Shown here piece by piece: positions 56,620 to 57,780 of a DNA stretch of 64,000 nucleotides (positions are counted from its first letter, which is position 1; the number at the start of each line of letters is the position of its first letter). A program made the position numbers and the translations under genes. The DNA comes from Aureimonas ureilytica DSM 18598 = NBRC 106430 (GTDB taxonomy: Bacteria > Pseudomonadota > Alphaproteobacteria > Rhizobiales > Rhizobiaceae). A model generated the notes under the pieces. It did no database searches, had not been told where the DNA came from, and worked only from the letters and a program-made list of their open reading frames with translations. The stretch covers positions 725,551 to 789,550 of the forward strand of contig NZ_ARQE01000001.1 of the NCBI RefSeq assembly GCF_000382705.1. The letters run 5' to 3'.

Positions 56620-57780
56620 ATGAGCGCTTTGGTTCAGCCCCGTCTCGTGAACGACGCGTTCGGCGATTCCACGCTCTATCTCGACTTCGCCTTCGGCCGG
56701 CGCGCCATGCTCTTCGACCTCGGGGACATCCACGCCCTGTCGCCGCGCGAGATCGGCCGCGTTACCCATGTGTTCGTGTCGCATCTCCACATGGATCACT
56801 TTGCCGGCTTCGACCGCCTCTTGCGCCTTCGATTGAACGTGCCGGGCCGCATCCGGCTCGTCGGGCCGCCGGGCCTTTGCGAGGGCGTGGCGCACAAGCT
56901 CGCGGCCTATCGCTGGAACCTCCTCGGCGAGACCTCGCCCGATTTCGCGCTGGAGGCGCTGGACTGGCGGGAGGGCGGCTTCGTCGCGGCCGGCCTGTTT
57001 CGGGCGCGGGCGGGTTTCGCGCAGGCCGACTTAGAGCTGGGGATGAAACCTCCGGGCGGAGGAGGGTCGAGAGATTTTCGTTCGCTCGCTAGGAGCGAAG
57101 CGCAGTCGATGCCGGCGGCATCGGCGAGCATTCACGACGAAGCGAGCGACGGAAAGATCCGACCCGCCGACCCCGCGAGGTTTCGTCCCCAGCTCTTAAG
57201 CTTGCCCGATCTTCCGCCCGGCGTGGTCCTCGCCGAGCCAGGTCTCCTGGTAGAGGCGGTGCCGCTCGACCACGGAATTCCCTCGCTCGCCTTCGCCCTG
57301 CAGGAACGGCTGCGGGTGAATGTCCACAAGGCGAGGCTGGACGAGATGGGGCTTGCCGTCGGCCCCTGGCTTTCCCGCGCCAAGGAACGTCTGCGGGCCG
57401 GCGAGGGCGGGGACGTGGAGGGGCCGGAGGGGCAAGCGCTTTCGCTGGAGGCGCTGGTTCAGGCCGGCGCGCTGCAAACGGCCGATGGCCAGCGCGTCGC
57501 CTATGTCACCGATGCGGGATGGAGCGAGGCGAACCGCAAGGGTATCCGAGCCATCGCGAAGGACGCCGACACGCTCTTCATCGAAGCCGGCTTTCTCGAC
57601 GCCGATCGCGCCATCGCCAATGGCCGGCACCATCTGACCGCCGCGCAAGCCGGCACGCTCGCGCGCGAAGCCGGCGCGCGGCGCGCCGTAGCCCATCATT
57701 ATTCGCCCCGCTACGAGACGCGGGAAGCGGAACTGAGCGCCGAGTTCGAGGCGGCCTACAGGCGCAGCGGCGAGGCGTAG
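56620..57780 (+). CDS. MBL-fold metallo-hydrolase (RNase Z-like) carrying an in-frame palindromic insertion
   Basis: 386 residues. Metal ligands: THVFVSHLHMDHFAGFDRLL (HxHxDH), VPLDHGIPSLAFALQER, VTDAGWSEAN, FIEAGFLD and a final His in VAHHYSPRYE. This is a ribonuclease Z/ElaC-related branch. Residues about 138-194 (LELGMKPPGGGG to FRPQLLS) have no counterpart in the fold and are encoded by a 171-bp near-palindrome, exactly 57 codons. Without it the reading would run AQAD to LPDLPPG, as expected for the family. The frame stays open, so the protein may still fold with an extra loop. The start at 56620 has AAGGGAAAGG upstream. The 3' end overlaps the convergent gene by 25 bp. Confidence 0.88.
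   Translation: MSALVQPRLVNDAFGDSTLYLDFAFGRRAMLFDLGDIHALSPREIGRVTHVFVSHLHMDHFAGFDRLLRLRLNVPGRIRLVGPPGLCEGVAHKLAAYRWNLLGETSPDFALEALDWREGGFVAAGLFRARAGFAQADLELGMKPPGGGGSRDFRSLARSEAQSMPAASASIHDEASDGKIRPADPARFRPQLLSLPDLPPGVVLAEPGLLVEAVPLDHGIPSLAFALQERLRVNVHKARLDEMGLAVGPWLSRAKERLRAGEGGDVEGPEGQALSLEALVQAGALQTADGQRVAYVTDAGWSEANRKGIRAIAKDADTLFIEAGFLDADRAIANGRHHLTAAQAGTLAREAGARRAVAHHYSPRYETREAELSAEFEAAYRRSGEA
57030..57200. mobile_element. 171-bp palindromic element inserted in frame in the MBL-fold gene
   Basis: The left arm starts CTTAGAGCTGGGGATGAAAC (57030) and the right arm ends GTTTCGTCCCCAGCTCTTAAG (57200): over 20 bp of near-perfect inverted repeat. The complementarity continues inward (GGTCG...TTCGCTCGCT against AGCGAGCGA...CGACC). 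The centre is the perfect palindrome CGATGCCG-G-CGGCATCG at 57107-57123, whose midpoint 57115 is the exact midpoint of the element. It carries no transposase. Length 171 is a multiple of three and the reading has no stop. It resembles in kind the palindromic elements that insert in frame in Rickettsia genes; family unknown. Confidence 0.8.

Follow-up and report, generated by a model that had tools for sequence, protein, structure and literature searches.

How did a long near-palindrome come to lie inside a conserved protein gene of Aureimonas ureilytica DSM 18598 with its reading frame intact, and what kind of element is it? The gene lies in a stretch of 64,000 nucleotides (hereafter the window). 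The first-pass annotation, made from the sequence alone, had described a unit of 171 bp or 57 codons; the true unit is 162 bp long (57034-57195) with TTA, a 3-bp duplication, on either flank, and the net gain at the site is 165 nt or 55 codons (162 bp plus one extra TTA). The longer figure arose because both TTA copies and three flank bases had been included. The features of the locus are as follows (MITE, the class argued for below; TIR, terminal inverted repeat).

56620..57780, + strand: host gene for an RNase Z-like protein with MBL fold (PRK02126 subfamily), 386 aa with the insert counted; ATG start picked by homologue alignment
57031..57033, no strand: left copy of the TTA target-site duplication, Leu in frame
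57034..57195, + strand: putative MITE, 162 bp, GAG...CTC, TIR type A
57034..57049, + strand: left TIR, 16 bp; types A and B differ mainly at element positions 5-12, i.e. 57038-57045
57056..57173, + strand: core hairpin behind model R2, a module common to elements with other TIRs
57091..57093, + strand: conserved AGG, 5' side of an asymmetric internal loop; its middle G pairs with the C of ACG
57107..57123, + strand: apical stem CGATGC/GCATCG and loop, the perfect 17-nt centre
57137..57139, + strand: conserved ACG, 3' side of the internal loop
57180..57195, - strand: right TIR, 16 bp; matches the TIR of the IS at locus L274 (16 bp, 94%)
57196..57198, no strand: right copy of the TTA target-site duplication

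The near-palindrome lies where it was first placed: over 37 nt, 81% of the bases in the arm 57033-57069 are complementary to those in the arm 57160-57196, base pairing is perfect in the 17-nt centre (CGATGCCGGCGGCATCG), and the element starts with GAGCTGGGGATGAAACC and terminates in the near-complement of GAGCTGGGGATGAAACC. Folding, proposed in the first-pass annotation as a check, gave -151 kcal/mol for the 231-nt stretch 57000-57230 as compared to a mean of -101.6 for shuffled sequences (z -9.4; 0/200 shuffles were as low). With its TIRs and its length of 162 bp (the range for MITEs being 70-300 bp) the element has the build of a MITE, and it is too short for a transposase gene.

The host protein matches PF12706 and the NCBIfam 'ribonuclease Z' subfamily PRK02126 (338 bits, cut-off 315, in two stretches), and the frame of this metallo-beta-lactamase-fold gene is open, with no stop, through the element, as the first pass had it. 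The best titled homologue is from Aureimonas ureilytica (87%) and its gene is without the 165 nt; the window residues FAQADL/SLPDLPPG flanking the insert are equal in length to FAGCPSTLPDLPPG in this orthologue, which represents the empty site. The insert is absent from 31/31 homologues in a 32-row alignment (a few residues are aligned there in L085 and L101), and among 41 genomes searched (host included) the orthologues in genomes G019, G013 and G028 have no gap at the insert position. The insertion in the window is real and missing from the nearest relatives sampled, and the clean in-frame gain that an orthologue alignment had been expected to reveal is what the alignment gives. In the AlphaFold model of the host protein (mean pLDDT 86.4, with a confident core) residues 145-190, in the insert, score below 50; the 55-residue insert is probably a disordered loop in the predicted RNase Z-like protein.

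Copies of the element are numerous. A search of the host genome by BLAST with the window copy gave 45 matches, including self-matches on the reverse strand. A covariance model (R1), built from 26 full copies, found 28 full-length copies there, plus weaker and antisense matches, and matched 19 of 61 genomes (host included), with most matches in G013 (at least 48), G019 (at least 45), the host (at least 35) and G008 (at least 21); 8 of the 20 genus mates searched have no R1 match. The idea of a small non-autonomous mobile element with copies elsewhere in this genome and in sister genomes is borne out by this search. We gathered 151 copies with their flanks; 149 of these belong to the genus, and the other 2 come from G034, which is in another family. 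Their lengths are chiefly 159, 161, 162 and 163 bp, the GAG...CTC ends are exact in 107 copies, TNA stands on both sides in 78, and the TNA flanks are identical in 61 (27 TAA, 23 TTA, 8 TCA and 3 TGA). In the R1 core alignment, 35/56 pairs show compensatory change. No annotated feature lies under the best matches on three plasmids of G013.

Some copies measure 194-217 bp rather than about 162 bp (L271, L154 at 1043-1259, L186, L226 and L228), and in L271 (the same as L009) the extra sequence lies within the core. We also note weak matches of about 50 nt that reach both ends of R1 in the host genome (G000; C1:679053-679106, C3:529988-530040, C4:229692-229744 and C8:263-315), possibly minimal deletion derivatives that keep both ends.

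Many copies sit at the ends of genes. According to our own codon-model gene calls, which were used in place of annotation, the duplication coincides within 1 nt with a gene stop in 46/151 copies. Of the 61 copies with strict duplications, 23 are at stops, 26 are intergenic and 12 are in called genes, as compared to 123, 941 and 4029, respectively, for background TNA sites in the same flanks (stop vs intergenic, P about 8e-10). When the flank class is matched and stop overlaps are included, 25 of 49 non-genic copies are stop-related vs 5.9 expected, and 0/20,000 simulations reached this number; the two C-TWA classes contain few background stops (3, with 2 further overlaps). Copies therefore coincide with stop codons well beyond expectation. 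At such sites the duplicated TNA keeps the stop of the gene (TAA/TGA, or TTA/TCA on the other strand), and the orientation of the element relative to the stop-codon gene shows no bias (29 same, 20 opposite, P 0.25).

The stop-codon excess may reflect target choice, survival, or both. The favoured target is C-TNA-G/A with A or T as middle base. Insertions that break genes would be selected against, and the window copy may have survived because 162+3 is a multiple of three, the frame holds no stop, and the site is a loop in which the 55 residues probably form a disordered linker. Against selection on gene-breaking insertions stand the 12/61 strict copies in called genes. In the C-TWA-G context, moreover, called genes hold 6 copies per 13 background sites and intergenic regions 5 per 11, and this equal rate speaks against such selection unless the gene calls are wrong. 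Siting at stop codons with a stop-keeping duplication suggests how a GC-rich genome can bear dozens of insertions cheaply.

Which transposase could move such elements? We sought DUF4096-family transposases in 21 Aureimonas genomes and inspected a subset of the loci for ends, which yielded partner ISs for three end types of the MITE copies. Those of type A, the type of the window copy, are in G013 (L292, 842 bp, TAA/TAA, GAGTTGGGGACAAAAC; L274, 857 bp, TTA/TAA), those of type B are in G008 (L309, 845 bp, TTA/TTA, GAGTGCCTAACAAAAC; L306, 845 bp, TAA/TAA, with ends GACYGCCTAACAAAAC, GAC), and those of type C are in G010 (L294, 911 bp, TTA/TTA, GAGTCCGTCCGGAAAG) and G003 (L279/L293/L310, 907 bp, TAA/TGA). 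NCBIfam calls L292, L309 and L294 IS5 (L309 with 108.9 bits, just below the cut-off of 110). The ends of the A-type ISs match 20 MITE copies, all 20 of type A; those of the B-type match 26 (25 B and 1 untyped), and those of the C-type match 18 (15 C, 2 D and 1 untyped). The left ends of L002 and L003 match the TIR of L274 over 16 bp with 94% and 100% identity, respectively, and ISs of types A and B share 76-80% DNA identity. For types A, B and C the TIRs thus match autonomous ISs in related genomes. The host genome has 13 DUF4096 hits, some at contig ends and possibly cut; the 11 that were inspected include no autonomous IS with such ends, and the inspected IS5 loci, which are part of the IS hits in the genus, include no partner for end types D and D2 (the commonest) or E.

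We conclude that the window element is very probably a palindromic MITE, mobilised in trans by those transposases of the IS5 family (DUF4096 / NF033580) that make a 3-bp TNA duplication, which we take to be the mark of the IS1031 group of IS5. The transposase would recognise the 16-19 bp ends, chiefly a block at about positions 5-12. Descent by internal deletion from one of the ISs found was rejected: matches between MITE and IS ends are at most 19 bp, the longest other matches are 22-23 bp with E-values of at least 0.15, and the interior has no significant match. As a separate observation, three elements with two hairpins (L396, L436 and L437 of G526) have GGGTCCGAACCC ends that resemble the GGGTCAGGACCC ends of the IS-like elements L339 and L296 in Aureimonas; going by this likeness, a further partner type is possible.

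The two ends of a copy agree: by nearest consensus, left and right end type are identical in 147/151 copies. The end type changes repeatedly along a tree built from the core only (118 columns; 55 of 147 inner branches are unresolved and no direction is given), with at least 17 changes among 139 typed copies, or 25 (vs a shuffled mean of 95) when the 12 untyped copies are taken as a seventh group. Well-supported branches alone force 3 changes for type A, 4 for B, 3 for C, 3 for D2, 5 for D and 2 for E. Judged from these sequences, end type is polyphyletic on the core tree, related cores having been combined several times with different ends, and the ends look interchangeable. The window copy itself falls, with four type-A sisters, within a well-supported clade of 38 mostly type-B cores. 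In this clade 3 type-A and 13 type-B copies have no letter in common at the end positions 5-8 and 155-157 or, further in, at 31, 49, 53, 112 and 113; the majority letter differs between the types at 29/162 positions, 12 of which are within the outer 12 bases of either end, and inner identity is 83% between A and B, 87% within B and 92% within A. Both the ends and a middle-stem block (about 49-58 and 106-116) vary between type-A and type-B copies.

A new end could be gained on one arm, e.g. through recombination with the end of an IS; as the element forms a single hairpin over its full length, hairpin-templated repair could then copy it to the other arm, so that both ends would change together and the element would switch transposase. 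End replacement and core conversion give the same pattern on a core tree, and it is conceivable that ends were not swapped and that parts of the cores became alike through recombination or gene conversion between different MITE families, for which an equal mosaic pattern is expected on a tree without direction. We give this alternative a substantial though minority likelihood because copies of types A and B also differ in the middle stem and the variable blocks are not confined to the ends. However, the end blocks (5-8 and 155-157) are the only long runs of fixed differences, and since both sides change together, conversion would have had to stop near the same point on each side.

Outside the genus the core recurs in Alphaproteobacteria and a number of other Pseudomonadota, combined with many further ends. 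R1 matched 6/199 genomes of the order (host included), and a second model (R2), built from 31 cores including distant ones, matched 32/385 genomes of the class and 13/398 of the phylum (host in each), 8 of the 13 being outside the class; most sampled genomes are without the core at the thresholds used. G494 and G498 carry elements of 161-162 bp with type-D-like ends and TTA or TCA flanks. In 20 further loci of the class search the ends are 259-273 bp apart in 16 and longer in 2 (307 and 329 bp), and 2 gave no ends; TIRs of class-search loci are of many kinds, with flanks that are often CTA...TAG or TTA...TAA. Among seven phylum-search loci, six look single-core (155-178 bp by end search) and one is a 262-bp unit. 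Two inverted cores are present in 19/29 loci outside the genus.

The structure of the core is kept across this range. In 48 hairpins from the 29 loci outside the genus 95.1% of cells are paired and 30/31 pairs show double changes, with a covariation of 0.659 vs 0.157 for shuffled and at most 0.107 for slid alignments (the alignment was fitted to the model, which favours this result). In these hairpins from other genomes the AGG has its A in 47/48 and both Gs in 48/48, and the ACG has its A in 48/48, its C in 47/48 and its G in 43/48. On the motif strand G-U pairs outnumber A-C pairs by 61:15 in the hairpins outside the genus and by 171:51 over 18 pairs in the Aureimonas copies, for which the structure was predicted without G-U (in both sets the copies are related and the counts not independent). 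The G-U excess points to selection acting on one of the two strands, in the form of RNA or of single-stranded DNA. The core would be kept since a strand-specific structure acts, in either form, independently of the ends, and our guess is that it is a structured nucleic acid, specific to one strand, that lives as a parasite on any IS5-like transposase its ends happen to fit. No Rfam family matched near its gathering score in the window region and 18 other loci; two matches are at chance level, one to SAM-IV at 57568-57683 (21 bits against a cut-off of 38) and one to isrG in L391 (18.5 bits against a cut-off of 100). Tentatively, and with less than even confidence, we propose a phylum-wide class of mobile hairpins with one structured core (a variable long stem, near-invariant AGG/ACG and a CGATGC-type apical stem), which is present either once or twice in inverted orientation. 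By gaining IS5-like ends time and again, such hairpins would have come to parasitise many transposases, and stop codons would offer them refuge; selection would act on the core as its unit, and the ends would be keys that can be exchanged.

Some individual loci outside Aureimonas are worth recording. In G197 (L372-L383) at least 14 core matches were scored; they lie in a repeat of about 300 bp that has two hairpins and GAGCGGTTCATGGTTATAGGG ends, and several are situated at contig ends. G417 (L404, L420-L425) contains two-hairpin elements with several end sequences in one genome; no autonomous two-hairpin element was found in it, and the exact end of L404 occurs solely at that element. The 162-bp, type-D-like element L438 has relatives with 69-71% identity at 165095-165256 of NZ_CP040642.1 (Agrobacterium sp. 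T29) and 564724-564848 of NZ_CP015737.1 (Shinella sp. HZN7), both plasmids, with no annotation beneath.

The open frame in the window raises the question of whether the family is made to be translated. Likely coding sequence is on both flanks of 17/151 copies (42/151 are within called genes by a looser criterion), and the frame is kept open in 4 of the 17. Apart from the window copy these are L154, at a stop codon, and L166 and L223, without a domain spanning the insert; by Pfam, no domain spans an insert in 15 read-through frames, and in L166, L211, L242 and L247 the domains are downstream. An initial test for ORFs spanning the element proved too noisy for a genome so rich in GC. The window copy is the one homologue-verified in-frame insertion among 151, and the earlier suggestion that the family tolerates or exploits translation does not hold as a rule, the clear excess being at stop codons instead. 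A protein-coding palindrome of the Rickettsia type, selected for translation, would agree with the open frame in the window and with 3.57 open frames per copy, slightly more than in all 40 sets of dinucleotide shuffles (mean 3.06, highest 3.28; the excess is small and consistent). Rickettsia palindromic elements, however, recur in frame in protein genes, and one verified case in 151 copies shows no such recurrence, which largely refutes this type as the rule; we give it almost no credence.

Another reading keeps mobility as the means of spread only and sees in the core a structured RNA under selection, which would be of advantage to the gene on whose stop codon it has landed, for instance as an insulator or by stabilising the 3'-UTR. 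The compensatory changes, the near-invariant loop residues, the preference for G-U over A-C on one strand and the stop-codon siting in 46/151 copies would all agree with it. We consider it unlikely, as the elements have no preferred orientation to the gene, the cores of two-hairpin elements are opposed in direction, no Rfam family matches, and target choice plus selection can account for the stop-codon sites. A REP/REPIN-like element, whose apical hairpin a RAYT (Y1, IS200/IS605-like) transposase would recognise and whose AGG/ACG loop would be a degenerate GTAG tag, is highly improbable. Its layout does recall the GTAG REPs, with an unpaired tag beside a hairpin and dimers in opposite orientation (here the 19/29 loci outside the genus), as PMC3733652 describes them, and GTAG is at the place of the tag in 10/48 hairpins outside Aureimonas. 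Yet the 15 commonest tags, found in 144/151 copies (CGAG 85, CAAG 19), do not include GTAG, and a DDE transposase is what TIRs with 3-bp duplications fit. Of 21 Aureimonas genomes none gave a match to the Y1 transposase family (PF01797), as compared to 5/14 control genomes, and mobilisation by RAYT is rejected for Aureimonas on this ground, unless a Y1 enzyme escaped detection.

MITEs are usually seen as deletion remnants tied to one parent transposon, and ERIC, NEMIS/Correia, RUP and YPAL are not known to have more than one TIR type each. The window family shares the GAG... ends (GAC in L306), the TNA duplication and the DUF4096 transposase with the TNA-duplicating (IS1031) group of the IS5 family; unlike an internal-deletion remnant of an IS5 element, it matches the ISs at the ends only, over at most 19 bp. 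Like Rickettsia palindromic elements (RPEs), the window copy is a palindrome with a long hairpin (about 100-150 bp in RPEs), in frame inside a conserved protein gene; unlike RPEs, which lie in frame in many genes (19 reading frames cited in PMC2229807), its family has one verified in-frame copy, carries TIRs, duplicates TNA and has, for three of its end types, partners in the IS5 family. The same review describes ERIC, NEMIS/Correia, RUP and YPAL as elements of 100-200 bp, mostly with TIRs and target duplication, with a stable hairpin and some in-frame fusions, as here, with mostly TA termini and YPAL duplications of 3-26 bp as compared to TNA in our family; only RUP among ERIC, NEMIS, RUP and YPAL has a named partner there, IS630-Spn1 (PMC2229807). 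Several end types on one core and the stop-codon excess set the window family apart from these. Caulobacter CIR (PMC2229807) are likewise alphaproteobacterial intergenic repeats, of about 110 bp, with two inverted arms, and are defined by GANTC, which is present in 1/48 hairpins from other genomes and 24/151 Aureimonas copies (CIR were compared by description only). GTAG/CGTC REPs with their RAYTs resemble the core in having a hairpin with conserved unpaired foot residues, pairs in opposite orientation and positions mostly downstream of genes (PMC3733652); our elements differ from GTAG REPs in that no RAYT-family member was found in the 21 Aureimonas genomes, in having no conserved GTAG, and in forming a TIR-flanked unit with target duplication.

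The first-pass annotation knew of no in-frame palindrome family for this group. In the open-licence PMC literature we indeed found neither the window family nor an Aureimonas MITE, nor MITEs with exchangeable ends on a conserved core, but in-frame MITE fusions outside Rickettsia are known (ERIC, YPAL and NEMIS; PMC2229807), and the in-frame insertion alone is a fresh case of a known phenomenon. A conserved core with varied ends, three of which fit different transposons and in which both ends agree, lets one test how non-autonomous elements outlive and switch their parent transposon, and it points to a structured nucleic acid absent from Rfam. With its apparently interchangeable ends, its stop-codon excess and its widespread structured core, the wider family is a new variant of MITE and is of more interest than the insertion through which it was found.
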